From assembly GCF_004634195.1 (NCBI RefSeq), contig NZ_SKBP01000008.1:1-64000 (forward strand): a stretch of DNA of 64,000 nt. The letters run 5' to 3'. This document shows, one piece after another, positions 4,712 through 35,269 of the stretch. The notes under the pieces were generated by a model, which saw only the letters and a list, made by a program, of their open reading frames with translations, ran no database searches and was not told the DNA's origin. Made by a program: the position numbers and the translations under genes. Every line of letters begins with the position of its first letter. The first letter of the stretch is position 1. The stretch is from Flavobacterium salilacus subsp. salilacus. Its GTDB lineage: Bacteria > Bacteroidota > Bacteroidia > Flavobacteriales > Flavobacteriaceae.

Positions 4712-4714
4712 ATC

Positions 4715-9372: not shown

Positions 9373-10707
9373 TTATAAATTTTGTACGGCAGCTTTAAAC
9401 TGTCTGCCTCTGTCTTCATAACTTTCAAACAAATCGAAACTTGCACATGCCGGCGACAGTAATACTGTATCGCCTTTTTCGGCAATTCTCTGGGCTACTT
9501 TTACAGCCTCGCTCATGCTTGTAGTTTCTACCATTACATCTACCACATTGCCAAATGCATTGATGATTTTTTGGTTATCTACCCCAAGGCATATTATTGC
9601 CTTTACTTTTTCATTAACCAACTGCATCAGCTCGTCATAATCGTTGCCTTTATCTACCCCTCCTACAATCCATACGGTAGGTGTTGTCATGCTGTCCAGT
9701 GCAAAAAATGTGGCATTGGTGTTGGTAGCCTTACTATCATTAATATATTGTACATTTTGTATTTTAAGTACTTTTTCAAGGCGGTGTTCTACCCCCTGAA
9801 AGTTGGAAAGACTCTCTCTTATAGTTTGTTTCCTGATACGCATAAGCTGTGCAACCGCTGTTGCTGCCATGGCGTTCTTTACATTGTGCTTTCCTTCTAA
9901 TGATAATTCGTTTATTGGCATTTTAAATTCCTCCTCTATTTTGCTTAAAATTGTGTTGTTTTCTATATATATTCCCTCTTTGTTATTGCCCGAAAGCGAA
10001 AAGGGTATTTTTTTTGCTTTAATTGTATTCTGTTCCAGCCATTTTGCTATTACCTCGTCATCGGCATCATATATCAGGTAATCCTCTTCTGTCTGGTTCA
10101 TTGTTATCCTAAACTTTGCCGCTATATACAATTCATACTTATATTCATATCGGTCAAGATGATCGGGGCTTATATTGGTTATTACTGCGATATGCGGTTT
10201 ATAGCTCTCTATACCGTCAAGCTGAAAACTGCTTAACTCCAGCACATAACTGTCGTGTTTGTTTTCGGCTACCTGCCAGGCAAAGCTTTTACCTATATTA
10301 CCGGCAAGCCCCACGTGCAACCCGCCTTGTTTTAACAGATGATGCGTTAACATGGTAGTGGTTGTTTTACCATTACTGCCTGTAATGCCTATGGTTGTTA
10401 CTGTGATGAGCTGTGATGCAAACTCTATTTCGGAGATTACAGGTACACCTTTTTCTTTCAGTAACTTTACTATGGGCGATTTATCCGGTATGCCCGGGCT
10501 TTTCATGACCACATCTGCATTCAGTATCAAGGCTTCGGTATGCTTCCCTTCTTCCCAATCCAGTTTATTAAGTGCAAGAACTTCTTTATAACTTTCTTTT
10601 ATTTTTCCAAAATCGGATACAAAAACTTCATATCCTTTTTTTTTGCCGAGTATCGCAGTACCTACACCGCTTTCTCCGCCCCCCAGTACTACCAGTCTTT
10701 TTGCCAT
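9373..10707 (-). CDS. murD: UDP-N-acetylmuramoylalanine--D-glutamate ligase MurD
   Basis: ATP-dependent ligase that adds D-glutamate to UDP-MurNAc-L-Ala. The N-terminal VVLGGGESGVGTAILGKK binds the nucleotide sugar. GITGSNGKTTTTMLTHHLL is the P-loop, SPDHLDRY and YINDSKATNTNAT are conserved Mur-ligase segments, and the C-terminus has LLSPACASFDLFESYEDRG. It has 444 residues, as expected. It abuts mraY (1 bp between them), and its stop is followed by the repeat-bearing gap before ftsW. Confidence 0.98.
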   Translation of the reverse strand: MAKRLVVLGGGESGVGTAILGKKKGYEVFVSDFGKIKESYKEVLALNKLDWEEGKHTEALILNADVVMKSPGIPDKSPIVKLLKEKGVPVISEIEFASQLITVTTIGITGSNGKTTTTMLTHHLLKQGGLHVGLAGNIGKSFAWQVAENKHDSYVLELSSFQLDGIESYKPHIAVITNISPDHLDRYEYKYELYIAAKFRITMNQTEEDYLIYDADDEVIAKWLEQNTIKAKKIPFSLSGNNKEGIYIENNTILSKIEEEFKMPINELSLEGKHNVKNAMAATAVAQLMRIRKQTIRESLSNFQGVEHRLEKVLKIQNVQYINDSKATNTNATFFALDSMTTPTVWIVGGVDKGNDYDELMQLVNEKVKAIICLGVDNQKIINAFGNVVDVMVETTSMSEAVKVAQRIAEKGDTVLLSPACASFDLFESYEDRGRQFKAAVQNL

Positions 10708-10708
10708 A

Positions 10709-11941
10709 CTATCTTAGTTTTAATGATACCAACGAGAATATGGCAAGCATTATGGCTACAATCCAAAAACGGGCTACAATTTTACTTTCATGATACCCCT
10801 TTTTTTGGTAGTGATGGTGCAAAGGCGACATCAGGAAAATACGTCGTCCCTCGCCATATTTTTTCTTAGTATATTTAAAATAGCTTACCTGTACTACTAC
10901 CGATAAATTTTCGGCAAGAAAAATACCGCACAATATGGGTATTAGTAACTCTTTGCGTACCGCTATTGCCAGCACTGCTATTATACCGCCTATGGTAAGG
11001 CTACCCGTATCGCCCATAAAAACGGAAGCGGGATAGGTGTTATACCAAAGGAATCCGACCAATGCTCCTACAAAAGCGGAGATGAATACCGTCATTTCTC
11101 CTGAATTGGGGATGTACATTATATTCAAATAATTAGAAAATATAATATTACCCGAAACGAAGGCGAATATACCCAACGTAAGTACTGCTATTGCCGAAGT
11201 TCCCGCAGCAAGCCCATCGATACCATCCGTAAGGTTAGCACCATTAGATACTGCCGTAATGATAAATATCACTATGGGGATAAATATCAGCCATGCAAAG
11301 TCTTTATAATTGTCGCCTGCCCACGAAAGCAAATCGGCATAATCAAATTCATTATTTTTAAAGAACGGAATAGTGGTAGCGGTCGATTTTTCCTCTGTAG
11401 GTATTGCCGAAACCATATCATGCTCCGGAGTGGTTGCATAAATATCTACTTTAGAGGTATCAGTACGCACTGTTACGGCAGGATGAAAATAGAGTACATA
11501 GCCCACTATAAGCCCCAGTCCTACCTGACCGATAACTTTAAACTTGCCTTTAAGCCCTTCTTTATCTTTTTTAAATTTCTTTATATAATCGTCTATAAAA
11601 CCTATTGTTCCCATCCACAGGGTAGTAACTATAAGCAGCATTACATATACATTATCCAGCTTGGCAAGCAACAGTACCGGTATAAGGGTAGCTACTATAA
11701 TAATAAGCCCGCCCATAGTTGGCGTACCTGCTTTTTGCGACTGTCCTTCAAGTCCTAAATCGCGCACTGTTTCGCCTATTTGCTGCCTGCGTAAAAAGTT
11801 GATTATCTTTTTACCAAAAACGGTAGAGATGAATAACGACAGCATAACCGCCATACCCGAACGGAATGTGATGTACTGAAAAACACCTGTGCCCGGGATA
11901 TCTAATTGTTTATCTAAGTATTCAAATAAATAGTACAGCAT
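10709..11941 (-). CDS. mraY: Phospho-N-acetylmuramoyl-pentapeptide transferase MraY
   Basis: Integral membrane enzyme that transfers phospho-MurNAc-pentapeptide to undecaprenyl phosphate, forming lipid I. Visible landmarks are KAGTPTMGG, the Asp-rich [31 protein letters not shown] with the metal-binding aspartates, and the His-rich [15 protein letters not shown]. An insertion of about 50 residues after the third region ([18 protein letters not shown] and following) brings the total to 410. Bacteroidota MraY proteins often carry it. It lies between murE and murD. Confidence 0.98.
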
Positions 11942-11947
11942 ATGCGA

Positions 11948-13408
11948 TTATTTGTTTAGTTGCGCTAATAATTCTCTTACCGTCTCCATATCGTCAAAAT
12001 GGGTACGAACCCCTTTTATTTCCTGATAGGTTTCATGCCCTTTTCCGGCTATGAGTATAATGTCGTTGGGTTTTGCAAGCTGGCAGGCTATTTTTATTGC
12101 CTGCTTTCTGTCCACAACAGCTATTGTTTTTTTATAATTCTGAGGTTCTACTCCTCTCTCCATATCTTCTATAATCAGCTCCGGCTCTTCACTTCTTGGG
12201 TTATCCGATGTAAAAATTGCCTGATCACTCATAGCTGATGCTATGTGTGCCATAATGGGTCGTTTGGTTTTGTCTCTGTCGCCTCCGCAACCTACTACTG
12301 TTATAAGCTGCTCGTTTCTGGTACGGATAGTTTCTATTGTTTTCAATACGTTTTCTAAAGCGTCCGGCGTATGGGCATAATCTACTATCGCTGTTATTTT
12401 GGTTTCAGAGATAATAAATTGAAATCGTCCTGAAACGCTTTCCAACTCACTCATCAGGCGTAATACTTCCTGACTTTCCAATCCTAAGTTTACCGCAGCA
12501 CCATATATTGCCAATAGGTTATAGGCATTAAATGTTCCTATGAGTTTTACCCATACTTCCTGCTCATTTATTTTAAGTAACAACCCCGAAAGTTGATTTT
12601 CTAATATCTGGGCTTTGTAATCGGCATAGGTTCTTAGCGCATACGTCAGCTTTTTAGCCTTGGTATTTTGCAACATTACCAATCCGTTTTTATCATCTAC
12701 ATTTACTAATGCAAAGGCTGTTTTAGGCAATTCGTCAAAAAATATCTTCTTTACATTACGGTACTCTGCAAAGCTGTTATGGTAGTCCAAATGATCATGC
12801 GACAGGTTTGTAAATATACCTCCCGCAAACTCCAGTCCTGCCGTTCTGCTTTGGTGTATGCCATGCGAGCTTACTTCCATAAAGCAGTACTCTACCCCTT
12901 CCTGGGTCATTTCATGCAGGTACTTGTTTATAGTGAGCGAATCGGGTGTGGTGTGTGTTGCCTTATATTCGGTGTCTCCCACCATTACCTTTACGGTAGA
13001 AAGTAAGCCTGTTTTATAACCTGCATTTTTAAACAGTTGATGCAAAAGTGTGGCTATGGTTGTCTTACCATTAGTACCTGTTACGCCTACCAGTTTCAGG
13101 TTTTTAGAGGGTGTTCCGTAAAAATTGGATGCCATGAATGCTAATGCCCTGCCTGAGTTTTTAACCTGTACATAAGTAACGCTTGTACGCTCTGTTTCGG
13201 GCAATGTTTCGCATACTACGGCAACAGCGCCCTGGCTTACTGCTTTTTGTATATAATCGTGCCCGTCAGACTGCGTGCCTCTTACAGCGATAAAAACATC
13301 ATTTTTACTTATAAGTCTGGAATCAAAAGCTATGGTATTTACGGTTATATCGGTTGAGCCTTTTACAGCCTCGATAGCAGTTTTATATAATATGTCTTTT
13401 AATACCAT
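11948..13408 (-). CDS. murE: UDP-MurNAc-tripeptide synthetase MurE
   Basis: Mur ligase that adds the third stem-peptide residue. The P-loop is GVTGTNGKTTIATLL (about residues 107-121). The segment FTSDNPRSEEP contains the DNPR motif, which in this family marks selectivity for meso-diaminopimelate. The preferred start is the ATG at 13408, whose A is shared with the ftsI stop (TGATG on the minus strand). A GTG three bases earlier is the alternative. The 1-nt overlap suggests translational coupling with ftsI. Confidence 0.97.
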   Translation of the reverse strand: MVLKDILYKTAIEAVKGSTDITVNTIAFDSRLISKNDVFIAVRGTQSDGHDYIQKAVSQGAVAVVCETLPETERTSVTYVQVKNSGRALAFMASNFYGTPSKNLKLVGVTGTNGKTTIATLLHQLFKNAGYKTGLLSTVKVMVGDTEYKATHTTPDSLTINKYLHEMTQEGVEYCFMEVSSHGIHQSRTAGLEFAGGIFTNLSHDHLDYHNSFAEYRNVKKIFFDELPKTAFALVNVDDKNGLVMLQNTKAKKLTYALRTYADYKAQILENQLSGLLLKINEQEVWVKLIGTFNAYNLLAIYGAAVNLGLESQEVLRLMSELESVSGRFQFIISETKITAIVDYAHTPDALENVLKTIETIRTRNEQLITVVGCGGDRDKTKRPIMAHIASAMSDQAIFTSDNPRSEEPELIIEDMERGVEPQNYKKTIAVVDRKQAIKIACQLAKPNDIILIAGKGHETYQEIKGVRTHFDDMETVRELLAQLNK

Positions 13409-15408
13409 CACAACAATTCCAATATTATAGTTTGATTTTTTTTAAGGGGTTGCCCCGGCGGTATCGATTGCTTTTTTACTTTGCCGATGCCTGCAACGTG
13501 TACTTTAACCCCCAAATTTCCTAATAGTGCCACGGCATCCATGCCACTCATACCGGCAAGATTGGGCATAACATTTGTTTCTTTTTGAACTTTTTGGTAA
13601 TAGGAGGCATATAATTGTTCCTGACCTTTTATTTCTTTATCCAATTTTTTTATCTGATTGGTAGAGGGTACATCGGTAAATATTTTTTGCGCTATTCTCT
13701 TAAATACCGGTCCTGATACATCGGCTCCGTAATACCCTTTTCGGATACTTGGCTTATGAATAACTACGATACAGGAGTATTGTGGTTCATCTGCCGGAAA
13801 ATAGCCTACAAATGATGATGAATAATACATCTCGTCGCCTTTACCACCACCATAGTTTACCTGTGCCGTACCTGTTTTGCCTGCCATTGAAAAGTTTGGT
13901 GAGTATAATTTTGAGCCTGTTCCGCGCTTTACTACGTTTTCTAATACTCCTCTTACTTTATCTATGGTTTCCTGCGAGCATATCTGAGGTTTTATTACCT
14001 CTTTATCAAAATGTTTTATGGTTTTATTCCATTCTTTAATATCTTTTACAAACAGGGGCCTTACCATTTCGCCATCGTTTGCTATAGCATTATAAAATGC
14101 AAGTGTTTGTAATGGTGTCATTGAAACGCCATATCCAAAACCCATCCATGGCAGTGATAGTCTTGACCATTTTTTATCATCCGGATTTGGTATATAGGGC
14201 TTCCCTTCTCCTATGATGGAAACACCTAAAGGTTTATCCAGACCGAAGTTGCTAATGTGATTTACAAATGCTCTCGGATCGTCTTTATAATTATCATATA
14301 CTGCCTGTACCAATACGGTATTGGATGAAACTTCAAAACCGCGCGCCAGTGATATCTTACCGTATCCTCCTTTTTTAGAGTCGCGCACTTTACGGTTAAA
14401 ATACATTATCTCACCGCCATGCGAATCATATACCTGGCTGGTATCTACTTTTTTATCTTCCAGTAATGCAATAAGCCCTGCCAATTTGAAGGTTGAACCC
14501 GGCTCTTGCGACTCGCCTACGGCATAGTTTACGGTTTCGTAGTATGAACTGTCTTTGGCACGACCTAAGTTGGATATTGCTTTTACATAGCCTGTTTTGG
14601 TTTCCATAACTACTACACAACCATGATCGGCTTCATAGTATTCCAGTTGTTTCAGCAGGGCATGGTGTGCAATATCCTGTATATATACATCTATAGTCGA
14701 TATTATATCATAACCATCTACGGGCTCTATTTCGTTATCATCGCTTATGGGTTTCCACTGGTTTTTGGCTATCTTTTGCATCATGCGTTTACCGTTTGTA
14801 CCATTAAGATACTTGGCAAATGCTCCCTCTATACCTACTTCCAAATTTTCTCCTGAGTAGCTTAGCCTTTCATACCCTATGGTACGCTCGGCAATTTTGC
14901 CTATAGGATGCTCTCTTACTGTTTTCTGCTCGGTAATGATACCTCCTTTAAATGCACCCAACTCAAATAATGGGAAGTTCTTTATACGTATGTATTCCGT
15001 ATAGCTTAATCCTTTTGTGATAAGTTGATACCTGTTTTTAATATTGCGGGCTTTGGTTAATTTATCGTAATAATAGGATGAGGGTTTGCCCAGCATTACC
15101 GATAGTGAATCGGCAAGAGCAGGAAGGTATTCATCAAAATCTTCTTTTTTTGGTGCAAGGGCGTCAAAGCGAATTGTATAATTGGGTATGGAAGTTGCCA
15201 GCAGGCTACCATCTGCCGAATATACATTGCCTCTGTTGGCAGGAATGGTAAAGTTGCGCACTGTGCGCTCGCGGGCAAGCTGACGATAATAGTCGCCCTC
15301 TACCCACTGAATATTGGTGAGTTTTACGGCAATAAGTATAGCCATCACAAAAATTGCGAAGGCTACCAGATATATTCTGTAAGATATTTTTTTATCTTCT
15401 ACTGCCAT
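13408..15408 (-). CDS. ftsI: Penicillin-binding protein 3 / FtsI (class B transpeptidase with PASTA domain)
   Basis: Septal transpeptidase of 666 residues. It has an N-terminal membrane anchor (YLVAFAIFVMAILIAVKLT, about residues 13-31) and a dimerisation region. The transpeptidase domain has the catalytic SxxK in EPGSTFKLAG, the SxN motif in FEVSSNTVLV and KTG in MAGKTGTAQVNYG. A single C-terminal PASTA domain (VMPNLAGMSGMDAVALL onward) resembles that of SpoVD/PBP2x. It overlaps ftsL by 10 bp upstream and murE by 1 bp downstream. Confidence 0.97.
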   Translation of the reverse strand: MAVEDKKISYRIYLVAFAIFVMAILIAVKLTNIQWVEGDYYRQLARERTVRNFTIPANRGNVYSADGSLLATSIPNYTIRFDALAPKKEDFDEYLPALADSLSVMLGKPSSYYYDKLTKARNIKNRYQLITKGLSYTEYIRIKNFPLFELGAFKGGIITEQKTVREHPIGKIAERTIGYERLSYSGENLEVGIEGAFAKYLNGTNGKRMMQKIAKNQWKPISDDNEIEPVDGYDIISTIDVYIQDIAHHALLKQLEYYEADHGCVVVMETKTGYVKAISNLGRAKDSSYYETVNYAVGESQEPGSTFKLAGLIALLEDKKVDTSQVYDSHGGEIMYFNRKVRDSKKGGYGKISLARGFEVSSNTVLVQAVYDNYKDDPRAFVNHISNFGLDKPLGVSIIGEGKPYIPNPDDKKWSRLSLPWMGFGYGVSMTPLQTLAFYNAIANDGEMVRPLFVKDIKEWNKTIKHFDKEVIKPQICSQETIDKVRGVLENVVKRGTGSKLYSPNFSMAGKTGTAQVNYGGGKGDEMYYSSSFVGYFPADEPQYSCIVVIHKPSIRKGYYGADVSGPVFKRIAQKIFTDVPSTNQIKKLDKEIKGQEQLYASYYQKVQKETNVMPNLAGMSGMDAVALLGNLGVKVHVAGIGKVKKQSIPPGQPLKKNQTIILELL

Positions 15409-15746
15409 AATTTACTAAATGTGCTTTTCTCTTCCTCTTTTATTACTTTTATCTTTTTAGGTGGTACCGATGAAGGGTATATCTCTCTTTGCTCCATCTT
15501 GCGCGCCACAGTCGATTCCATTTTAAGCTCCATCAGTTCAGAACGTCTGTCAACAAATTCAGAACGAAGTACTTTTACTTCATTTTTAAGTGCTTCAATG
15601 CGGTGTATCTTTTGTTCATAATTATGAGCGTTGGCTATCATGAGCATGGCTATTACTACCAAAAAAATGATGAAGCTCCAGTTTTTCATAGAACCTTCAT
15701 CTACTAAATATTTTGCTTTTAACAGACCGTAAACCCCGCCTTTCAT
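15399..15746 (-). CDS. ftsL: FtsL-like cell division protein
   Basis: A small bitopic protein of 115 residues. One membrane helix (WSFIIFLVVIAMLMIANA, about residues 23-40) is followed by a Glu/Lys/Arg-rich segment likely to form a coiled coil (about 45-85), and the tail is basic. This is the topology of FtsL, which links FtsQ/FtsB to FtsW/FtsI. Sequence similarity within FtsL is weak, so the call relies on topology and position between rsmH and ftsI. A later start at 15689 (MKNWSF) is possible. It ends with a 10-bp overlap into ftsI. Confidence 0.85.
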   Translation of the reverse strand: MKGGVYGLLKAKYLVDEGSMKNWSFIIFLVVIAMLMIANAHNYEQKIHRIEALKNEVKVLRSEFVDRRSELMELKMESTVARKMEQREIYPSSVPPKKIKVIKEEEKSTFSKLWQ

Positions 15747-15748
15747 AA

Positions 15749-16645
15749 TTATTTTTTTTCTGCTACTCGCAGCTTTGCACTTCTTGCTCTGTTATTTACA
15801 GCTATCTCATCATCTGTCGGAACTATCAGTTTTTCTATACTTTTAAAAGGCACTTCAAAATTTCCAAACATATCGCGCTCAGGCTCTCCTTCAAACATTC
15901 CGTTGCGCATATAGCGTTTTACTAATCTATCTTCAAGGGAATGATAAGATATTACACTAAGCCTGCCTCCGGGTTTGAGCACCTCCAACGATTGTAATAA
16001 AAATTCTTTAAGTGCTTCTATTTCCTGATTTACCTCTATACGGATAGCCTGGTACATTTGCGCCAATATCTTATTGCTCCTGTGTGCCGGAAGAAATCGG
16101 TTAAGGACTGTTTTAAACTCTTCAGAGTTTTTAATCTCTTTTTCTTTTCTTGCTGCAACAATAGTATTTGCTATTCCTCTTGCATTTTTAAGCTCTCCAT
16201 AATCAAAGAACATTTTTTTCAACTGCTCTTCTTCATATCCGTTAATTACACTATAGGCGCTCACATCGTTTTTCTTACTCATGCGCATATCCAGCTCTGC
16301 TTCAAACCGGGTAGAAAAGCCTCGCTCGGCAACATCAAACTGGTGCGATGATACACCTAAATCTGCCAGTATGCCATCAACCTCGGTTACTCCGTGAAAA
16401 CGCAGATACCTTTTTAAAAATCTGAAATTTTCAGGAATCAACACAAAACGTTCATCGTCTATTACATTAGCCTGCGCATCTTCATCCTGATCAAAAGCAA
16501 ACAGCTTTCCGTTGGGTCCGAGCCTTTTTATAATCTCTCTTGAGTGACCGCCACCGCCAAAGGTTACATCCACATAAACACCATCGGGTTTTATAGCAAG
16601 CCCATCTACAGTTTCTTTCAACAAAACAGGGTTATGATATTCCAT
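15749..16645 (-). CDS. rsmH: 16S rRNA m4C1402 methyltransferase RsmH (MraW)
   Basis: SAM-dependent methyltransferase that modifies C1402 of 16S rRNA. The SAM-binding segment VDVTFGGGGHSREI is at residues about 24-37. GILADLGVSSHQFD and VISYHSLEDRLVK are conserved further on. The start MEYHNPVLLKETV at 16645 is the family's usual N-terminus. An earlier in-frame ATG at 16660 would add MMMIV. With the preferred start the gene overlaps the end of mraZ by 14 bp. Confidence 0.97.
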   Translation of the reverse strand: MEYHNPVLLKETVDGLAIKPDGVYVDVTFGGGGHSREIIKRLGPNGKLFAFDQDEDAQANVIDDERFVLIPENFRFLKRYLRFHGVTEVDGILADLGVSSHQFDVAERGFSTRFEAELDMRMSKKNDVSAYSVINGYEEEQLKKMFFDYGELKNARGIANTIVAARKEKEIKNSEEFKTVLNRFLPAHRSNKILAQMYQAIRIEVNQEIEALKEFLLQSLEVLKPGGRLSVISYHSLEDRLVKRYMRNGMFEGEPERDMFGNFEVPFKSIEKLIVPTDDEIAVNNRARSAKLRVAEKK

Positions 16646-17108
16646 CACTATCATCATCATTTAAATTTCCCATCACTTCTTCAGCCAGATCTGCAAAATC
16701 AACAACTGAATCATCAATAGACTGTTCGTATTTTTCTTTATCCCATACCTCCACAATATTCACTGCGGAAGAAAGCACAATATCCTTATCAATAGCTGCA
16801 AAAGCGACAAGGTCTTTCGGTATCAACAGCCTACCGGCGGCATCTACCTCTATCATCTTTACACCGGCAGTAAACCGCCTGATGAAATCGTTGTTCTTTT
16901 TAACAAACCGATTCAGTTTGTTTATTTTTTGCATCATTTTTTCCCACTCTGCCATAGGGTATAATTCCAAACATGGCTGAAACACGGAACGCTTTAAAAC
17001 AAACCCATTATCAATACCCGCAGACAATTGCTTCTTCAAGGGTGCAGGCATCATGAGCCTTCCCTTTGCATCTACCTTACATTCATATGTTCCTACAATG
17101 GTATTCAA
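16632..17108 (-). CDS. mraZ: Transcriptional regulator MraZ
   Basis: First gene of the dcw operon, 158 residues with two SpoVT/AbrB-like swapped-hairpin halves. The first has GTYECKVDAKGRLMMPAPLK (residues about 6-25) and the second has VEVDAAGRLLIPKDL. Family members bind short direct repeats in their own promoter and repress the dcw operon as ring-shaped oligomers. The upstream region (17154-17210) holds such repeats with about 10-bp spacing. Confidence 0.95.
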   Translation of the reverse strand: MNTIVGTYECKVDAKGRLMMPAPLKKQLSAGIDNGFVLKRSVFQPCLELYPMAEWEKMMQKINKLNRFVKKNNDFIRRFTAGVKMIEVDAAGRLLIPKDLVAFAAIDKDIVLSSAVNIVEVWDKEKYEQSIDDSVVDFADLAEEVMGNLNDDDSDGIS

Positions 17109-28069: not shown

Positions 28070-29140
28070 TTAGTCCTGATATACCTCCAATACAGGCAAT
28101 GCTGTGTTATTAAAATCCCAAAAGGCAAGGTTTTCGGTAGCCGAACCATCTGTTGCTGTAGATCCGTTAAAAGCAATTAGCTCTGCGCCCCAATAACAAA
28201 AACCAATACCTTTGGGCACTTGTGTAGCTATTTGTTTTATTTGCTGCAAATATGCCTTTTGACCGGCAGTTGTGGGGGTATATTGTGGCAACAGTTGGTC
28301 TTCGCTGCCTATAATGTTGTTGGTATGGTCGTTCCATTCCAAAGTAAACGGATAGGCTGTTTCGGCAATAACCACATCCTTATTATATTGAGTAGTAAGC
28401 TGTGTCATGGTATTTTGAAATGCTGTAAGGTCTTTTCCGTGCCATATAGGATAATAGGACAGCCCTATTATATCATAATCCAGACTTGTTAAAGCGGAAT
28501 AAAAGTTTTGTGCCCCCTCATATCCCGCATAGTGCAGTATTATTTTACAGTGGGCACTATTATCTCTCACTGCGCTAATACCTTTAGATAATAGGGTTGT
28601 AAACTGTGCTGTATTGGTAATACTACCTTCCGAGAAAAGAAAGCCACTATTAATTTCGTTTCCTATTTGTATATAATCGGGTTGTATTGCGGTTACTATT
28701 TGTGTGGTATAGTTATATACTTCTTGTTGTAATGTGGTAAAATCTGCATCCTGCCAAGCCATAGGCTTTGTCTGATTGCCCGGGTCTGCCCAAGTATCGG
28801 AATAGTGTACTGTGAGCCATACTTTCATTCCTTTACTTTTTACTTCATCGGCAAACGCTTTTACTTCTTCAAATCCTGAATGAGTGTTTTCGGGGTCTTT
28901 CCAAAGTCGTATTCTTATGGTGTTTACTCCTGCGTTTTTTAATGTAGTCAACATATCCTCAGGTTGCCCTGCGGCATTAAGAGTTACCGTGCCCGATTGC
29001 CGCACTTGCGGTGTTGAAGATGCATCGACACCCTTAATGAAAAAAGATTTATTAACCGTATCAGGTTGCTTTGCGTCATCTGATGAATTACAGGAAACAA
29101 ATAATAAAAGTGTGAGTATAGGGCACAAATATTTTTTCAT
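28070..29140 (-). CDS. Arabinogalactan endo-beta-1,4-galactanase (GH53) lipoprotein
   Basis: 356 residues. A lipoprotein signal ends in LLLFVSC (lipidated Cys17), so the enzyme is surface- or periplasm-anchored. The TIM barrel shows GVNTIRIRLWKDPE, WLTVHYSDTWADPGNQTKP, the acid/base Glu in IQIGNEINSG, and the nucleophile Glu in VVIAETAYPF. GH53 enzymes cleave beta-1,4-galactan side chains of pectin. No SusC/SusD pair or other glycoside hydrolase is nearby, so it is an orphan rather than part of a polysaccharide utilisation locus. The cargo transposon begins 14 bp upstream of the ATG, and its target duplication begins 6 bp upstream, so the native promoter is probably displaced. Confidence 0.94.
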   Translation of the reverse strand: MKKYLCPILTLLLFVSCNSSDDAKQPDTVNKSFFIKGVDASSTPQVRQSGTVTLNAAGQPEDMLTTLKNAGVNTIRIRLWKDPENTHSGFEEVKAFADEVKSKGMKVWLTVHYSDTWADPGNQTKPMAWQDADFTTLQQEVYNYTTQIVTAIQPDYIQIGNEINSGFLFSEGSITNTAQFTTLLSKGISAVRDNSAHCKIILHYAGYEGAQNFYSALTSLDYDIIGLSYYPIWHGKDLTAFQNTMTQLTTQYNKDVVIAETAYPFTLEWNDHTNNIIGSEDQLLPQYTPTTAGQKAYLQQIKQIATQVPKGIGFCYWGAELIAFNGSTATDGSATENLAFWDFNNTALPVLEVYQD

Positions 29141-29145
29141 GATAA

Positions 29146-29153
29146 AAAAAGAT
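29146..29153. repeat. Target-site duplication, left copy (AAAAAGAT)
   Basis: Eight bases immediately outside the left tip of the transposon. They are identical to the eight bases immediately outside the right tip (34113-34120). IS1595-family elements are known to make 8-bp duplications. Confidence 0.8.
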
Positions 29154-29176
29154 GGTAACTATACTCTTTTTACACT
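29154..29176 (+). repeat. Left terminal inverted repeat of the transposon
   Basis: It begins GGTAACTATACTC and continues TTTTTACACT. It differs from the internal copy at 29721 at one base. It also contains, on the minus strand, the stop codon (GTG TAA) of the gene at 29170. Confidence 0.8.
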
Positions 29177-29397
29177 CCCCAAGATTCAAGACCATAATTC
29201 TTAATCTTTAAGCGGCATTTTCTGCTATTAAATCTTTCAATGTCAAAACTCTCTAAGAAGTCAAATAATTCTTTTAGTTCTTCGAAGCTACAAAATTCTA
29301 ATGCTTTTTTTAATATTCCTTTTTTCCCGCCGTAACAGGGACAAATATAATCGTAGTATTTTTTTGTATCTTGGTAATCAATAATTCTTATTTCCAT
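29170..29397 (-). CDS. Hypothetical protein (transposon cargo)
   Basis: 75 residues, no recognised domain. A CPCYGG motif (residues 19-24) is followed by a helical, charged segment (KKALEFCSFEELKELFDFLE). The last two codons and the stop are supplied by the transposon end (GTG TAA). There is no terminator between its stop and the GH53 start 30 bp further on, so a transcript of this gene could read into GH53. Its start codon is only 3 bp from that of the divergent gene at 29401, so at least one of the two may not be expressed as drawn. Confidence 0.5.
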   Translation of the reverse strand: MEIRIIDYQDTKKYYDYICPCYGGKKGILKKALEFCSFEELKELFDFLESFDIERFNSRKCRLKIKNYGLESWGV

Positions 29398-29400
29398 ATT

Positions 29401-29649
29401 ATGAATGAATTTAGTGGTTATAAAAGACTAAAGGGTAAAATAATAACTGTTAGTCGTATTTTAATACTTCAAGATAGAAGTACTATCACAGAGTATATTC
29501 AAGGTAAGTTGATGAGCGTTGATGACGAAGGTATTGAGATTGAGCAATGTTTAAATATGTTGGATTATCTTAATAACGTTGAAACCCCAACTTCTATCAG
29601 AAAATTTGATTTTAGAGATGTTGATTTTGAAGGTAATTTTCCCGCATAA
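29401..29649 (+). CDS. Hypothetical protein (transposon cargo)
   Basis: 82 residues from the ATG at 29401 (MNEFSGYKRLKGKIITVSRI). An earlier in-frame start at 29371 would overlap the divergent gene and is less likely. It looks like a small beta-rich protein with an acidic middle (GKLMSVDDEGIEIEQC) and has no recognised domain. It is divergent from the 75-residue gene, with 3 bp between the start codons. Confidence 0.5.
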   Translation: MNEFSGYKRLKGKIITVSRILILQDRSTITEYIQGKLMSVDDEGIEIEQCLNMLDYLNNVETPTSIRKFDFRDVDFEGNFPA

Positions 29650-29720
29650 AAAACCTCAAAGTGTGGAACGCAGATTTAAAGTAAGTGAGGTAACGGTAAA
29701 AAGTAAATTCAGAGTTTAAA

Positions 29721-29743
29721 GGTAACTATAGTCTTTTTACACT
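29721..29743 (+). repeat. Internal copy of the transposon left end
   Basis: GGTAACTATAGTC followed by TTTTTACACT matches the terminal copy at 29154 in 22 of 23 positions. As there, its minus strand supplies the stop codon (GTG TAA) of the gene that ends beside it (29737-30504). Confidence 0.8.
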
Positions 29744-30504
29744 AAACTCCTTATTAATTCGGCATTATAGAAACCATTTTCTTTTTTGTCAATATTTTTA
29801 AGTCTGAAATATCTTGTTTTGCGGGTTTTTATAAGAATGTTATCTATGTTTTTTATTTTTATTTTTTCGCCTGCCGTAAACATATATTTTATTCTCTCTA
29901 AATCGTAGAGATATTGTGATTGTGAATAACAATCTATCAAAATTTGGAAATTAATTACTTTACCCTTAAATGTGTTTGATTCTTTATTATAGGTGTAAAC
30001 TCCGAACTTAGCTTCATTTGTCTTAGGGATAATATTATTTGTACTTGAAGGGTCAATTATTATTTCTGAGTTATTGCCTGTAAAAGATAAAGTTGTTTCG
30101 TTATTCTTAGAATACATAGAGCCTAAAACATCTATGTTTTTTAAGATGTTATATATATTTTCATTCAACGCATAATTTTCTCTTGCTTGCGAAGAGATAT
30201 TAAACAACGATTCTGAGAAAAAGCCTGTTACAGGCAGATTGTCAACCGTTTTTATATCCCCAGCGTGCATATATGTTTTTGCATACACTTTTTCTAAAAT
30301 AGTTTTAGTTGTTAAATCGTCAAAACTAAACTCAATGTCAAAATCTATTAACATCACATCAGGGATAGGATGTTGATGTTTAATCTCATCATCTTTACCT
30401 AAAAGCTGTGATAATTTATATGTCCCCCAAAAACCCCCTACTGCACATATACCAATCACTAAAAAGTAAAATACTGTCATCTTTAAATTTTTTCTGTTTA
30501 TCAT
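29737..30504 (-). CDS. Membrane-anchored hypothetical protein (transposon cargo)
   Basis: 255 residues. One N-terminal membrane helix (MTVFYFLVIGICAVGGFWGTY, about residues 9-29) precedes a large polar domain, probably facing the periplasm. No known domain is recognised. The gene has a TATATTTG -7 element at 30530-30523, 18 nt before the ATG, so it is probably transcribed on its own. Its stop codon lies within the internal left-end copy. AT-rich codon use fits with foreign origin. Confidence 0.65.
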   Translation of the reverse strand: MINRKNLKMTVFYFLVIGICAVGGFWGTYKLSQLLGKDDEIKHQHPIPDVMLIDFDIEFSFDDLTTKTILEKVYAKTYMHAGDIKTVDNLPVTGFFSESLFNISSQARENYALNENIYNILKNIDVLGSMYSKNNETTLSFTGNNSEIIIDPSSTNNIIPKTNEAKFGVYTYNKESNTFKGKVINFQILIDCYSQSQYLYDLERIKYMFTAGEKIKIKNIDNILIKTRKTRYFRLKNIDKKENGFYNAELIRSLV

Positions 30505-30522
30505 AATAAGCTATATTATAGG

Positions 30523-30530
30523 CAAATATA
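30523..30530 (-). promoter_or_regulatory. Predicted -7 element for the membrane-anchored cargo gene
   Basis: Minus-strand TATATTTG, 18 nt before the start at 30504, lies just downstream of the hairpin that terminates the transposase unit. Confidence 0.5.
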
Positions 30531-30541
30531 GCCAAATAAAA

Positions 30542-30565
30542 ATCCCAACCGTTTATGATTGGGAT
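30542..30565 (-). terminator. Terminator of the transposase operon
   Basis: ATCCCAA and TTGGGAT (7 bp) enclose a 10-nt loop. On the minus strand TTTTTATTT follows. It lies about 60 nt past the stop of the gene at 30628. Confidence 0.75.
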
Positions 30566-30589
30566 GAGTAACTTATTATGGATTACACC
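30566..30589 (+). repeat. Second internal end-like sequence
   Basis: GAGTAACTTATTATGG followed by ATTACACC. Compared with the reverse complement of the right end it shares GTAACT at the tip and ATTACACC at the inner edge, with a one-base gap. It is the closest partner of the right end in the window and would bound a 3.5-kb version of the element. Confidence 0.6.
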
Positions 30590-30627
30590 AAATAGCTATA
30601 TATGTATGTTAGTGCAATCTTTTTTAA

Positions 30628-30915
30628 TTATCTATCTTTAAAATTCTTTGCCTTCAATAAAGCCTTATTAAACTCTGATAAAGGTTCTTGCTTTCTTCCT
30701 TTTTCAATATTTTCTATTGTCGCGGCTTTTTTATAGGACACTCCGTTGGAAACTTCGCTATCACTTCCAAACGGTAAAGTAATACTTTCTACTTCTGATA
30801 AATCTTCTTTTAAGTGAGAAGCAACACTATCTACATCGAAATACCATTCGTTGTTAAACTGTACTTTATTTACAGTCTGTTCATTTAGTAGTTTTTCTTT
30901 ATCTATTTTCAGCAT
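30628..30915 (-). CDS. Hypothetical protein coupled to the transposase
   Basis: 95 residues. It starts 17 nt inside the end of the transposase gene, so the two are co-transcribed and probably translationally coupled. The segment NNEWYFDVDSVASHL faintly resembles the N-terminal part of BRO/DinD-type antirepressor domains. The rest (VSYKKAATIENIEKGRKQ) is charged and helical. An accessory role in transposition or its control is possible but is inference from position only. A terminator follows at 30542-30565. Confidence 0.65.
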   Translation of the reverse strand: MLKIDKEKLLNEQTVNKVQFNNEWYFDVDSVASHLKEDLSEVESITLPFGSDSEVSNGVSYKKAATIENIEKGRKQEPLSEFNKALLKAKNFKDR

Positions 30916-31873
30916 TCATTAAATCTTTGTACTTGGTTCTTTTATTTGAATTCAAAAGTAAGTAATTAAATCTTTCCCCTCCTTTATAATTTCGAGTGTT
31001 GTATCTGAATACAAACTCATCCACGTAACTTTGTAGGTGTTTCCTTTTTACACTATTATACATATCCCTTAAACTGTTCTTCATTATTTTCCACGAATTT
31101 TCGATTGTATTAGTATGGATTATAGAGCTGTCATAATCATGTTTATAGCCTTTATCCGAATGTTTTATTGTGTACTGATGATAATGTGTGCTTAACCCAT
31201 TGTAACCTCTCCAATCGTCAGAAACTAATATACTTCCTCTTACAACATACTTTTTAATTACTGGTTGCATTACTTCGGCTGCTGTGTTTACAGTTACTAT
31301 TGCGGTTAATTTTCCACCTCTCTCAATCATACCTGTTACCGCCGTTTTGTCTTTCCAGCTTCGTCCTTGACTGTTTTTTACCTTCTTATTGGCGTGTCTG
31401 AACTTATTTTTACCACCGTAAAAACTCTCATCACTTTCCACAATTAAGCCTTCCCCACCAATCTCATTATAGTTTTCTATGCCTAAACATTTTCTAATTC
31501 TCATTAAAAGATGCCATGCTGATTTTTGACTTATACCTCCTAAATCTTTGGGTAATTGTACAGATGAAATCCCTTTTTTATGGGAGATAACAAGATAAAT
31601 TGCAGCAAACCATTTTGTTAGCGGTACTTTTGTATTATCAAACATTGTACCTGTCTTTACAGTAAAGTATTTACCTGTGTTTTTACACTTGTATTTACCT
31701 CCTTTACACTTATAAACCTTTGAAGTTTCATCAAAAGGGGAAACGGGAACACCTTGCCAGTACAGTTCCTCTAAATGAGTTATACATTTTTCTTCTGTTG
31801 AAAATTCCTGTATTACTTCTAAGAGGGAGTTAAAGTCTTTGTTAAACATCGCTTGGTAATTTTTCTTTCTCAA
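30899..31873 (-). CDS. IS1595-family transposase (ISXO2-like domain)
   Basis: About 324 residues. The N-terminal part corresponds to the zinc-ribbon region (KCKNTGKYFTVKTGTMFDN), but several of the usual cysteines are missing. The DDE-type core shows ESDESFYGGKNKF (Asp148), SDDWRGYNGL (Asp219) and HTNTIENSWKIMKNSLRDM (Asn255/Glu258 region), the order expected for this family. The longest frame starts with TTG at 31873. An ATG 24 nt further in (MFNKDFNSL) is the alternative. A TATTTTTG element overlaps the TTG, which favours the later ATG. The gene overlaps the downstream 95-residue gene. Confidence 0.9.
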   Translation of the reverse strand: MRKKNYQAMFNKDFNSLLEVIQEFSTEEKCITHLEELYWQGVPVSPFDETSKVYKCKGGKYKCKNTGKYFTVKTGTMFDNTKVPLTKWFAAIYLVISHKKGISSVQLPKDLGGISQKSAWHLLMRIRKCLGIENYNEIGGEGLIVESDESFYGGKNKFRHANKKVKNSQGRSWKDKTAVTGMIERGGKLTAIVTVNTAAEVMQPVIKKYVVRGSILVSDDWRGYNGLSTHYHQYTIKHSDKGYKHDYDSSIIHTNTIENSWKIMKNSLRDMYNSVKRKHLQSYVDEFVFRYNTRNYKGGERFNYLLLNSNKRTKYKDLMNAENR

Positions 31874-31999
31874 AAATAGAATATTTTTACACTTATTAAT
31901 AAAATTTAGTGTTAAATAATTCTAATCTTTAGCGACTAACTTCAACAAATGTAAAGCATATAAGCGATGTTGTAAAAAGTATAAATTCTATTATTATCT
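31874..31999. other. Gap between transposase and XRE regulator genes
   Basis: AT-rich, both neighbours on the minus strand. It holds the likely transposase promoter (TATTTTTG near 31873-31880) and a TTTTTACACTTA string similar to the inner part of the left ends, which may be an additional transposase-binding site. No gene is seen. Confidence 0.4.
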
Positions 32000-32224
32000 T
32001 TAGAAATCTATTAGGTCTTTTACTTGGATATTTAAGGCTTTTGCCAGCTTGTAAAGGTTGGATATTGAGGTGCTTATTTCTCCGCGTTCAATCCTGCCAA
32101 CTTGGTTTCTCGGTATGTTAGCATCGTAGGATAATGTAGCCTGTGATAATCCTTTTTCTTCTCGCAGCTTCTTTAACTTATCCCCTAAAAGTCTGAGTAT
32201 CTCTGTGTTTTCTTCTTTCATCAT
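32000..32224 (-). CDS. XRE-family helix-turn-helix regulator
   Basis: 74 residues, essentially one HTH_3 domain: KKLREEKGLSQATLSYDAN, then PRNQVGRIERGEISTSISNL. Such short proteins are typical control genes of mobile elements and toxin or restriction modules. A start at 32221 is equally possible. A 6-bp inverted repeat, GACACA-TATT-TGTGTC, lies in the 103-bp gap to the divergent lipoprotein gene and is a candidate operator. Confidence 0.9.
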   Translation of the reverse strand: MMKEENTEILRLLGDKLKKLREEKGLSQATLSYDANIPRNQVGRIERGEISTSISNLYKLAKALNIQVKDLIDF

Positions 32225-32257
32225 GGGTAAAGTTGCACCCGTCTTGTAAAATAATTA

Positions 32258-32273
32258 GACACATATTTGTGTC
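32258..32273. promoter_or_regulatory. Candidate operator of the XRE regulator
   Basis: Perfect inverted repeat GACACATATTTGTGTC in the divergent promoter region between the regulator and the lipoprotein pair. The half-site size fits a dimeric XRE repressor. A second ATATTTG at 32292-32299 could be the -7 element of the lipoprotein transcript. Confidence 0.5.
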
Positions 32274-32327
32274 ATGTAAAGAATTTTTACAGATATTTGC
32301 TCTTATTAATTGTAAAATCAATCCATT

Positions 32328-32735
32328 ATGAGAAAATTACTTTTGTTACCTCTTTTATTTTTAGTGTTTGCCTGCTCTGATGATGACAGTAATTCAACTG
32401 ACGGCGGTTCATCTGCAACAGAAATAAACCCGCCTGAATGGGCGCAGGGTACATGGCTGTTTGTAAATAACATCAATAACATGGGTTTAAAATTTACAGT
32501 CGATGATGTATGTAATGTAAATTATTCTATTGCTACTTGTCACAAAGAAAATCTTGTTGCCTTTCAAAATGCAGGGGGTTTTACTAAGGTTGAAGAAACG
32601 GTTTTATCAACAGAATATATTGCTCACATCACTACGCAAGGTTCTGTCGTTACCTACCATGTAAAGAAAATATCTTCAACTCAAATTGAGTGGGTTTTAA
32701 GTGGTTCACAAACTCTGATTTTAACTAAGCAATAA
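32328..32735 (+). CDS. Small lipoprotein (transposon cargo)
   Basis: 135 residues. The signal MRKLLLLPLLFLVFAC with lipidated Cys16 is followed by an acidic linker (SDDDSNSTDGG), which in Bacteroidota favours export to the cell surface. The rest resembles a small lipocalin-like beta barrel (PEWAQGTWLF near the start of the mature domain). It is followed 2 bp later by a second lipoprotein gene, so the two form an operon under the possible control of the XRE regulator. Confidence 0.75.
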   Translation: MRKLLLLPLLFLVFACSDDDSNSTDGGSSATEINPPEWAQGTWLFVNNINNMGLKFTVDDVCNVNYSIATCHKENLVAFQNAGGFTKVEETVLSTEYIAHITTQGSVVTYHVKKISSTQIEWVLSGSQTLILTKQ

Positions 32736-32737
32736 TT

Positions 32738-33190
32738 ATGAAAACTTCTATTCTTTTATTTTTGCTATTATTGTGCGGACTGTTATCTTGTGAGCAGCGT
32801 TCAAAATCTACATATCCAATAAGTGAATCTAACGCTTATAGTATCTCCAAAAAGCAGTCATTGAATCCAATTCATTATTTTGCAGTGATAGCCAGTGATT
32901 TACCAAAGCGTGATAATATTCCAAGCGATATTTATATTTCCGATATTTCGACTACTAATGAAAAAATAACAAACGATTTTGAATATAAGTACTTGGATAT
33001 TTATGAAAACTCGGTAAGGAAGGATGTAAATTTTATACTTAAAGGTGAAAAACCAAAATTTCTTTACAGAAGGCTTTTTACCTATAACAGCTATAAAACT
33101 GCAAGTCTGAGAAGGCAAGAAATTTTAAACGGTGATTATTTGTATTTGGAAATGCAAGAACCTCCAGCAAGAACAACATTAAATCATTAA
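32738..33190 (+). CDS. Second lipoprotein (transposon cargo)
   Basis: 150 residues. The signal LLFLLLLCGLLSCEQ has a lipidated Cys18. The mature part has no recognised domain and contains many Tyr, Asn and Lys residues. It is tightly linked to the preceding lipoprotein gene (2 bp). Confidence 0.7.
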   Translation: MKTSILLFLLLLCGLLSCEQRSKSTYPISESNAYSISKKQSLNPIHYFAVIASDLPKRDNIPSDIYISDISTTNEKITNDFEYKYLDIYENSVRKDVNFILKGEKPKFLYRRLFTYNSYKTASLRRQEILNGDYLYLEMQEPPARTTLNH

Positions 33191-33217
33191 CATAAAGGGA
33201 TACCTAAAAATAACGTG

Positions 33218-33322
33218 ATGCAAGATTTACCTCTTTGGTTACAGATTATAATCGTTATTCCTCTTATATTTATAGGAGCGTATATAAGAAACTACATTTA
33301 TAAAAACAAACATAAATTTTAA
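33218..33322 (+). CDS. Possible 34-residue membrane peptide (cargo)
   Basis: Starts MQDLPLWLQIIIVIPLIFIG and ends in a short basic tail (YIYKNKHKF). One membrane helix is likely. Its position 27 bp after a lipoprotein gene and 12 bp before the next gene fits an operon member. Confidence 0.55.
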   Translation: MQDLPLWLQIIIVIPLIFIGAYIRNYIYKNKHKF

Positions 33323-33334
33323 AACCAATATATT

Positions 33335-33673
33335 ATGACTGAAGAAACAGATAGACTAATCCATTTAGGGGGAACGCAAAAATTACCTTTTGTATTACCC
33401 CCTCTTATAAAGGTTGAAAATACTAACATTAGTACCCACCTAAATGATATATTTAAACAATACAAGAAGGAGATACAAGAGGTATTCCCCAAAATTATAT
33501 CTAACTTAGAATATCTATTATCAAGTGATGCGGTTATAAGTCAATTTAAAAAAGATTTATACGTGTTTTTTACCTCTCACCCTCAGATTGGAGAAAATAA
33601 CTACGTCGATACTTACTTAAAAAATTCAAAAGAACTTGCACTTCTAATTTATCAAATTCGAGTGAAAGAATAG
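33335..33673 (+). CDS. Hypothetical protein (cargo)
   Basis: 112 residues, mostly helical by composition, no recognised domain, no signal peptide. It is the last clear gene of the plus-strand run that starts at 32328. A hairpin with a T-tract lies at 33809-33840. Confidence 0.6.
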   Translation: MTEETDRLIHLGGTQKLPFVLPPLIKVENTNISTHLNDIFKQYKKEIQEVFPKIISNLEYLLSSDAVISQFKKDLYVFFTSHPQIGENNYVDTYLKNSKELALLIYQIRVKE

Positions 33674-33791
33674 ATTTATCGCTATATTTAAATTCGATTT
33701 CTACTCCTAATCTTTTTAGTTCTCTTACCATAAATTCCAACTCTAAACAAGTATCTATAACTACGGTTGCATTATATTCTCTTTTTTTCAT
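33570..33791 (-). CDS. Doubtful hypothetical gene overlapping the previous one
   Basis: 73 residues (MKKREYNATVVIDTCLELEF...). It overlaps the 3' end of the plus-strand gene by about 100 bp. Composition is protein-like, but its start is only 18 bp from the terminator hairpin and no promoter is visible. Either this frame or the overlap is likely wrong. Confidence 0.3.
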   Translation of the reverse strand: MKKREYNATVVIDTCLELEFMVRELKRLGVEIEFKYSDKSILSLEFDKLEVQVLLNFLSKYRRSYFLQSEGER

Positions 33792-33808
33792 ATTTTCTAT
33801 AAATTAAT

Positions 33809-33840
33809 AAACCCTCTCTTTATTGAAAGGGTTTGGTTTT
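33809..33840 (+). terminator. Terminator of the cargo operon
   Basis: AAACCCT and AGGGTTT (7 bp) enclose a 12-nt loop and are followed by TGGTTTTT on the plus strand. Confidence 0.7.
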
Positions 33841-33856
33841 TAAATTAGTTTTTTGT

Positions 33857-33864
33857 TATATTTG
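33857..33864 (+). promoter_or_regulatory. Predicted -7 element
   Basis: TATATTTG right after the cargo terminator, 96 nt upstream of the 31-residue frame at 33960. TTTTTTG about 6 nt upstream is too close to be its -33 element, so support is partial. Confidence 0.4.
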
Positions 33865-33959
33865 GGAATGTAGTTTTATTCCGTACAAAGTATATTAAGC
33901 GAAAAAGTAAAAAAGACAAATGAACTATTTTTTCAAGTAACTTAATAAACGCCATATAG

Positions 33960-34055
33960 ATGAAATTTACATTCAAGACCAAAGAGTTTAAATTTACTAT
34001 TGAGGGCAAGCTGATTGTCATCTTAGTACTTCTTAAATCTCTTGGGTTTATTTAA
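33960..34055 (+). CDS. Possible 31-residue peptide at the right end of the transposon
   Basis: MKFTFKTKEFKFTIEGKL followed by IVILVLLKSLGFI. A basic N-terminal half and a hydrophobic C-terminal half. A hairpin terminator 6 nt after the stop and a promoter-like element upstream support expression. I do not recognise it. Confidence 0.4.
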   Translation: MKFTFKTKEFKFTIEGKLIVILVLLKSLGFI

Positions 34056-34061
34056 AAAACA

Positions 34062-34086
34062 AGCGGGTGAAAGTCCCGCTATTTTG
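34062..34086 (+). terminator. Terminator near the right transposon end
   Basis: AGCGGG-TGAAAGT-CCCGCT with ATTTTGTT after it. It would stop cargo transcription before the element's edge. Confidence 0.65.
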
Positions 34087-34088
34087 TT

Positions 34089-34112
34089 GGTGTAATTTAG
34101 TATATAGTTACC
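34089..34112 (-). repeat. Right terminal inverted repeat of the transposon
   Basis: On the minus strand it begins GGTAACTATATACTAAATTA and ends in CACC. The first ten bases equal those of the left tip. Confidence 0.8.
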
Positions 34113-34120
34113 AAAAAGAT
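34113..34120. repeat. Target-site duplication, right copy (AAAAAGAT)
   Basis: Identical to 29146-29153 on the other side of the element. Confidence 0.8.
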
Positions 34121-34171
34121 ATTGTAATAAAAATAGTGATTATATCTATTATATCTGAAACATTGTAAAAA

Positions 34172-34200
34172 TAAAAAAAGTGCCCTCTTGCGAAAGCACT
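34172..34200 (-). terminator. Terminator of the sigma/anti-sigma/OMP operon
   Basis: A stem AGTGC/GCACT with a 12-nt loop, followed on the minus strand by a long T-rich run (CTTTTTTTATTTTT). It lies about 35 nt past the stop codon at 34235. Confidence 0.65.
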
Positions 34201-34234
34201 CTTTTCTTCAAAGTACAAAACTAACCCTTAATTT

Positions 34235-35269
34235 TTAATTGATATCAAATCGTATGCCAAGTGACAAATTATTTTGATCAATATCATTATTTTGGAAAAT
34301 AGGCTGTAAATCATATTTTGCATACAAACTTATTTCTCCGTAGCCCACATAAGCGCTAACGCCATATACAAAATCGCTCACATTAAAATCACCTTTTTCT
34401 TTATCTTTTTGCCTGTTTCCGTTTTCTCTATATTTCAATATTTGTTTTTCTTTTACATTTACTCCGGCATAGCCCCCAAAACCTACCCTGAAACTATCGT
34501 GGGTGGGGTAATATACTTTATCATCAGTTGTACGTTTTTTAGTAAAATCAAGTTCGAGGTGTACAGGCACTACAAGATTTACATAACGCAGTCGAGACAC
34601 TTTAAGATCAAGTCCTGAATCGGTAAGGTAAGTTTTGCCTCCCTCGGTCACAAATTTCTTATCATCATCGGGGCGAAGGTTGTTATATTGTAATGAAAGT
34701 CCGTACTTGGCATGAAGCAGGTTATTTTCTTTTAACAGCCTTGTGTTCCATGACACACCCCACTCATAAAAATCAGAACGCCATTTATAATTATCTGTAT
34801 CTACCTCTCCGTCAACCACCACTCGGTTAACTCCAAGAGCGAATACAAATTGTGATGTAGTTCGTTTTGGTTCATATTTTTTTACAATGGTATCAGATTT
34901 AACACTCCTGTTATAGGTGAAAAGTCCGAAAGTATGACTAACGGATGATGATTCTACTTTACCATCTACTTTATCTTTTACCAGTTGTGTAAGTTTTTCT
35001 TCCTCTGCTGTTACTTTAATCTCAATGTTTTTTGCTCGTTTAGCGGCATACTCTCTTTTACGGGTATCAGCCTCCTCTTCGGATATTTCATTACTCTCAA
35101 GCATTTTGTTTACTTGCTCTACCTCCATTTTTAGAGAGTCTTTTTGCTGCTTGGTTATTTCCTCTATGTTTTTAGATATTTGATGTGCCCTTTCTTCAAA
35201 AGTTTGAGCATTTAATTTGGCTACGAGCAGGCATAGCGATGCCACTACATAAAAAATAATTGTTTTCAT
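34235..35269 (-). CDS. Outer-membrane beta-barrel-like protein
   Basis: 344 residues. A Sec signal (VVASLCLLVAKLNAQ) is cleaved near residue 21. A charged, probably coiled-coil segment (about 25-100) is followed by a C-terminal half with alternating amphipathic strands and aromatic residues, ending in LSLGIRFDIN. This end fits an outer-membrane barrel. The function is unknown. It follows the anti-sigma gene by 24 bp, so it may be the sensor or main output of the sigma system. Confidence 0.75.
   Translation of the reverse strand: MKTIIFYVVASLCLLVAKLNAQTFEERAHQISKNIEEITKQQKDSLKMEVEQVNKMLESNEISEEEADTRKREYAAKRAKNIEIKVTAEEEKLTQLVKDKVDGKVESSSVSHTFGLFTYNRSVKSDTIVKKYEPKRTTSQFVFALGVNRVVVDGEVDTDNYKWRSDFYEWGVSWNTRLLKENNLLHAKYGLSLQYNNLRPDDDKKFVTEGGKTYLTDSGLDLKVSRLRYVNLVVPVHLELDFTKKRTTDDKVYYPTHDSFRVGFGGYAGVNVKEKQILKYRENGNRQKDKEKGDFNVSDFVYGVSAYVGYGEISLYAKYDLQPIFQNNDIDQNNLSLGIRFDIN

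Follow-up and report, generated by a model that had tools for sequence, protein, structure and literature searches.

Elements with an IS1595-family transposase and passenger genes are designated tIS (Siguier, Gagnevin and Chandler 2009, as cited in PMC5704250 and PMC8101967). Features of the IS1595 family are described in PMC8101967, and PMC5704250 describes MTnSag1 and tISCpe8 as IS1595-transposase elements of 1.7–2.0 kb with one lincosamide-resistance gene each. The window analysed in this study is a 64,000-nucleotide stretch of the genome of Flavobacterium salilacus subsp. salilacus (3.01 Mb), in which it is carried on contig C16. A mobile element of 4,959 bp with an IS1595-family transposase and passenger genes occupies positions 29154–34112 of the window. 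Like tIS, this element combines a transposase of the same family with an 8-bp target duplication, inverted terminal repeats and passengers between the ends, and it shares with MTnSag1 and tISCpe8 the association of an IS1595 transposase with a passenger. Unlike MTnSag1 and tISCpe8, it has several passengers, which are mostly small proteins without a known family in Pfam or NCBIfam. A search of openly accessible papers found no account of internal, chimeric, hybrid, alternative or mixed IS1595 ends.

Sample of related elements

Relatives of the transposase were gathered from genome contigs (80 loci, i.e. the best 80 of at least 468 confirmed), from viral contigs (14 loci) and from genus genomes (20 stretches, of which 19 contained a transposase and one was a relic on contig C13). 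With the window included, this amounted to 115 loci, 114 of them with a transposase. Distinct elements were delimited by an exact 8-bp duplication together with matching GG-starting ends at a length of up to 10 kb, yielding 74 elements; duplicates, contigs ending within the element and loci without a qualifying duplication or end pair were left out. As the GG start of the ends was imposed by the end finder, it is not a result of the analysis. Internal copies of ends were sought at GG-starting sites only, with 40 dinucleotide shuffles per element.

The delimited elements ranged from 2,014 to 8,997 bp, with 24/74 exceeding 4 kb. The largest is a single 8,997-bp element represented by two loci (L105 and L080); it has an exact TTAATTTA duplication and 7.7 kb upstream of the transposase. 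A further element (L088, 8137–13895) contains, at element positions 4444–5189, an ORF that resembles an HNH endonuclease by eye; the full transposase is on one side of it and a second C-terminal transposase segment, 68% identical to the transposase of another element, is on the other. This second segment was considered as a fossil of arm capture and set aside, since the intervening HNH-endonuclease-like ORF explains it at least as well; the ORF may be a homing endonuclease that brought in a replacement 3′ end.

Boundaries and gene content of the element

The octamer AAAAAGAT is present in identical copies at 29146–29153 and 34113–34120. As this exact target duplication flanks the interval from the outer left end (LE1, 29154–29176, plus strand) to the right end (RE, 34089–34112, minus strand), the last transposition used LE1 and RE. 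Both ends start with GGTAACTATA and form terminal inverted repeats that agree at 13/23 positions without gaps and score 17 with gaps. The transposase (30899–31873, minus strand) matched both Pfam DDE_Tnp_IS1595 (PF12762, 111.5 bits; cut-off 27) and NCBIfam transpos_IS1595 (NF033547, 176.9 bits; cut-off 75), and the N-terminal zinc ribbon (PF12760) scored 16.3 bits, under the cut-off of 25.4. By its 8-bp duplication, inverted repeats and DDE domain, with a sub-cut-off zinc ribbon, the element belongs to the IS1595 family.

On the RE side of the transposase are a passenger regulator (32000–32224, minus strand; Pfam HTH_3, 5.6e-14), passengers of 135 aa (32328–32735, plus strand) and 150 aa (32738–33190, plus strand) that appear lipoprotein-like by eye, and two further passenger ORFs, o112 (112 aa; 33335–33673, plus strand) and o73 (73 aa; 33570–33791, minus strand). 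Relatives of the 135-aa protein were found in genome G055 and, more weakly, in elements L099 and L104. A terminator-like hairpin detected on both strands lies just inside RE (34062–34080). Towards the left end, orf95 (30628–30915, minus strand) overlaps the 3′ end of the transposase and is followed by p255 (29737–30504, minus strand), a 255-aa protein of unassigned function, and by the small genes o92 and o75. The predicted content between the ends (i.e. the HTH gene, two lipoprotein-like ORFs, p255, o92, o75, o112 and o73) would thus make the element a tIS. At E 1e-7 or better, relatives of orf95 were present in eight other distinct loci, and L121 held a further one at 3.7e-5; no Pfam or NCBIfam family scored above cut-off. 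The orf95 product may be accessory to transposition. When positions 28900–34300 of the window were used as a DNA query against the same genome, the sole other match was the relic on contig C13, which is 245 bp in length.

An internal copy of the left end

A second left end (LE2, 29721–29743, plus strand) is found inside the element. Alignment confirmed the claim of the preliminary description that the sequences at 29154 and 29721 agree at 22/23 bases in the same orientation; both start with GG. When each element was scanned for internal copies of its own end, the top match was 22/24 in the window as compared to 17/24 or less in the other 73 delimited elements, and the highest value in shuffled sequences was 19 over all elements and 17 for the window's own shuffles. 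LE2 is therefore real and exceptional among the 74 delimited elements. In two other elements (L157 and L169) the internal match was 17 and their own 40 shuffles gave at most 16, an excess of about the chance expectation (approximately two) over 73 such tests.

The likeness of LE1 and LE2 ends with the repeat. Both the 150 bp inside the two ends and the flanks outside them resembled each other at chance level only (361/500 and 424/500 shuffles as good, respectively). The idea that more of the left side had been duplicated in tandem was rejected on this ground. LE1 and RE, at 14/24 ungapped, are the second least alike end pair of the 74 delimited elements. The terminal genes at LE1 and LE2 (by coordinates), as at both ends of L099, have their stop codons within the end repeat. 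As a general rule for terminal cargo genes this arrangement was rejected, with 6/148 ends and 135/2960 control positions exhibiting it, i.e. no enrichment.

The outer module and its counterpart in Flavobacterium cerinum

The outer module between LE1 and LE2 consists of o75 (29170–29397, minus strand), a small outward-reading ORF with its stop codon within LE1, and o92 (29401–29649, plus strand), an 82-aa small protein divergent from o75. L099 is an element of Flavobacterium cerinum 1E403 (NZ_SBII01000004.1) whose transposase, at 75% identity, is the closest to that of the window among the matches listed. In a transposase tree of the matches listed, the window grouped with L099 (95/94) and then with L100 of Epilithonimonas (96/93). 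A terminal arm of L099 carries, in the same arrangement, a relative of o92 (52% identity), a relative of o75 and the end. The 81-aa relative of o75 was equalled by 0/2000 shuffles, and the DNA alignment of the window to this arm beat all 500 shuffles across o92 and the start of o75. The L099 end adjoins that element's own target duplication, TTAATTTT. No match to p255 was found in this F. cerinum genome at E 0.001. Matches to o92 were detected in 5/398 genus genomes at E 0.01 (own included), two of them near the limit. Besides F. cerinum, weaker matches were present in four other genus genomes, in two of which no IS was seen by eye around the o92 relative; viral contigs gave no match to o92.

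The inner module and its relatives

The C13 relic, in the same genome as the window, has an end followed, at the distance found in the window, by degenerate p255 3′ sequence, which aligned to p255 with a score of 116 (shuffle maximum 37). As the relic has no right end, its boundary is unprovable by a duplication. No o92 was found outside the relic's end, the window's o92 being the only match in its own genome, and comparison of the outer module to the 700 bp upstream of the relic gave a raw score of 24. The 22 bp outside LE2 resemble the 22 bp outside the relic's end with a score of 24. This likeness was reached by 4/500 and 1/500 shuffles for two flank lengths and, at the same score, by 99/10,369 flank pairs of different elements, and is probably due to chance; if it is not, the relic may once have reached further, which would speak against a clean boundary. 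No empty site was read near the relic: one neighbour gene was present in 39/80 relatives (own included), and the others, at 64–71% DNA identity, were too distant for the intergenic junction to be readable. The left flank of the window likewise gave patchy matches in 12/80 relatives (own included), from which no empty site was read.

Apart from the relic, p255 has a relative in G055 (36–38% identity), whose contig ends inside p255; a pattern search for the far end of that element found none. At E 0.001, p255 matched 5/398 genus genomes (own included), three of these weakly with 22–29% identity (G129, G254 and G263). It also matched 2/397 family genomes (own included), the other match being weak (G430, 27%), and 1/21 genomes reached via 22 loci, in this case weakly and with stops. 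No match was found in viral contigs and plasmids.

Spacing of the terminal blocks

In ends of this family, the GGTAACTATA and TTACAC blocks are separated by either 6 or 7 bases. Among the 62 scoreable elements of the 74, 55 had 7/7 spacing, six had 6/6 spacing and one, the element in the window, was mixed with 7 bases in RE and 6 in LE1; LE2 also has 6. The remaining 12/74 elements were unscored by the spacing rule, and in one of these (L087) the ends are alike except for a two-base difference in spacing. Unequal end spacing is thus rare but not unique. Both L099 and L100 exhibited 6/6 spacing and the p255 end of the C13 relic has a 7-base spacing. Without gaps, RE agreed at 20/23 positions with the end of the relic and likewise with that of G055, as compared to 13/23 for LE1 and LE2, and LE1 and LE2 were nearest to the L099 end (17–18/23). 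With gaps, LE1 had the same score (18) against each of the L099, relic and G055 ends, and the assignment of ends to lineages therefore rests on spacing. By spacing, RE would belong to the p255 relatives, and the left ends and transposase would be of the F. cerinum kind.

The sequence at position 30566

The preliminary description had placed a third left end at 30566 (LE3, 30566–30589), so that three left ends sharing one right end would define elements of about 5.0, 4.4 and 3.5 kb, lengths that follow from the coordinates, and had regarded this innermost copy as the best match to RE. Its local score against RE was indeed the highest (14, as compared to 13 for LE2 and 12 for LE1), but this score was equalled by 10/200 shuffles of the element interior and 5/500 shuffles of the arm. 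Against the ends of six relatives LE3 was unremarkable, and it lacks the terminal GG. Identical order of orf95, hairpin, terminator and p255 was found in G055, and no end was seen within the orf95-p255 spacer of that genome. The spacer up to the terminator aligned between the window and G055 with a local score of 41 (shuffle mean 14.3; 0/1000 mononucleotide shuffles as good), and the terminator-like hairpin in the orf95-p255 interval (30542–30565, minus strand in the window) and the stretch beyond it were almost unchanged. As the orf95-p255 junction is homologous in G055, it is not peculiar to the element in the window. A hairpin conserved with G055 (about 30581–30619 in the window) is predicted in both spacers, and the part of LE3 that resembles ATTACACC forms its 3′ arm. 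The outer AGTTAC block has a counterpart in the G055 alignment for TAC only. LE3 was accordingly judged unlikely to be a third end, given the homologous spacer, the missing GG and the marginal shuffle test. It would most simply be one arm of a hairpin with a likeness to the right end, and an ancient end decayed in the window and G055 alike is a less likely possibility.

A stretch comprising the terminator and a promoter-like sequence recognised by eye (TATATTTG; 30505–30565 in the window) is nearly identical in the spacer of L069 (about 15540–15600). Proteins of the two elements sharing this stretch are about 34–55% identical.

Origin of the element

The explanation that fits best, to which we assign about an even chance of being correct, is that of a hybrid IS1595-family element, assembled from parts of two element lineages, to which an outer terminal module was added; the sequence of steps is probable and not proven. 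Two IS1595-type lineages would have met in one genome. A p255-type core (i.e. RE, the passenger and HTH genes, the transposase, orf95 and p255 up to LE2) would then have come to adjoin o92-o75-LE1, the terminal arm of another element, presumably because one copy inserted next to or within another. By pairing RE with the outer LE1, the transposase would have mobilised the longer unit of 4,959 bp, with LE2 trapped in its interior and perhaps homogenised towards LE1. This reading is drawn from the duplication that brackets LE1 and RE, the unequal spacing of these two ends, the nearly identical sequences of LE1 and LE2, the F. cerinum element that has the outer arm but no p255, and the relic in the window's genome with an end beside p255. 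Elements do land in each other's cargo, as a complete IS1595 element is nested in the cargo of L145 (element 9915–16745) at element positions 3535–6536, with ends that are 24/24 identical, its own AAAAATAT duplication and a transposase in the same orientation as that of its host. Against the proposed order, F. cerinum, the nearest by transposase, has the outer module without p255, and the outer module could therefore be the older one.

Growth on the left side with the outer end now in use, as put forward in the preliminary description, is retained in this hybrid reading; the three-step nesting is not. The extra DNA had been viewed as captured flanking segments and appears instead to be a module with another element's kind of end rather than random flank. 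With regard to shorter versions that would begin at 29721 or 30566, the LE1 arm is terminal elsewhere (F. cerinum) and the p255 relic starts at the LE2-equivalent end, but the searches made recovered no complete element, bounded by a duplication, whose left boundary is LE2 or 30566.

A nested insertion followed by collapse is a genuine though less likely alternative for the origin of the element. An F. cerinum-type element would have received, within its o92-o75 arm and in the same orientation, an insertion of a p255-type element, and the two transposase genes would then have recombined and removed the duplicate part, with p255-LE2 left inside and LE1 as the older left end. The outer module of L099, whose transposase groups with that of the window (95/94), the complete element in L145 in the same orientation as its host and the mixed end spacings are all in keeping with such a course, but p255-LE2 resembled the orf95-o92 stretch of L099 only at shuffle level (245/500 as good), no clean empty site was seen in that stretch, and the spacing of LE2 is 6 bases, as in LE1, whereas that of the relic's p255 end is 7. 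Stepwise growth from a 3.5-kb ancestor, with left ends shifting from 30566 to 29721 and then to 29154, is considered improbable. L100, the next nearest by transposase among the matches listed, ends 58 bp past the orf95 stop, close to the 62 bp of LE3 (from coordinates), L073, L083 and L105 end 30, 64 and 103 bp past an ORF in the same place with putative kinship to orf95, and LE3 matches RE by local score; these points are set against the hairpin arm shared with G055, in which only TAC of the AGTTAC block aligns, the absence of a terminal GG and the marginal shuffle test. That the 23 bp of LE2 arose by chance or by local duplication and never were an end is scarcely credible, as the lack of a complete LE2-ended element in the searches made is outweighed by a 22/24 match that no shuffle approached beyond 19, by the end of the relic at the same place relative to p255 and by the confinement of the identity to the terminal repeat.

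Passenger gain by small IS is usually inferred without intermediates. The element in the window holds a used end and a stranded end together, each with its own module and each module with a counterpart elsewhere, and the unequal spacing of LE1 and RE offers an easy way to gauge how far an IS1595 transposase depends on matched ends. It is conceivable, though doubtful, that both left ends work and that one transposase moves either a 4,392-bp unit (LE2 to RE) or the 4,959-bp unit (LE1 to RE). If so, cargo could be gained or shed as whole 'gene plus end' terminal modules swapped between lineages, and mismatched ends would be tolerated.

Comparison with known systems

The element of F. cerinum shares with that of the window a transposase of 75% identity, orf95 and the o92-o75-end terminal arm. 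It differs in having neither p255 nor an inner end, in the 6-base spacing of both ends and in the presence of another ORF, coiled-coil-like by eye, between orf95 and o92. In contrast to tIS, the element in the window carries an additional left end in its interior and combines ends of two spacings. One-sided capture via alternative ends is known for ISEcp1, and the likeness to that system is that an outer end-like sequence together with a fixed end enlarges the mobile unit. With ISEcp1 the outer sequence in the flanking DNA matches poorly, whereas the outer end of the element in the window is an almost exact copy and comes with a gene module of its own.
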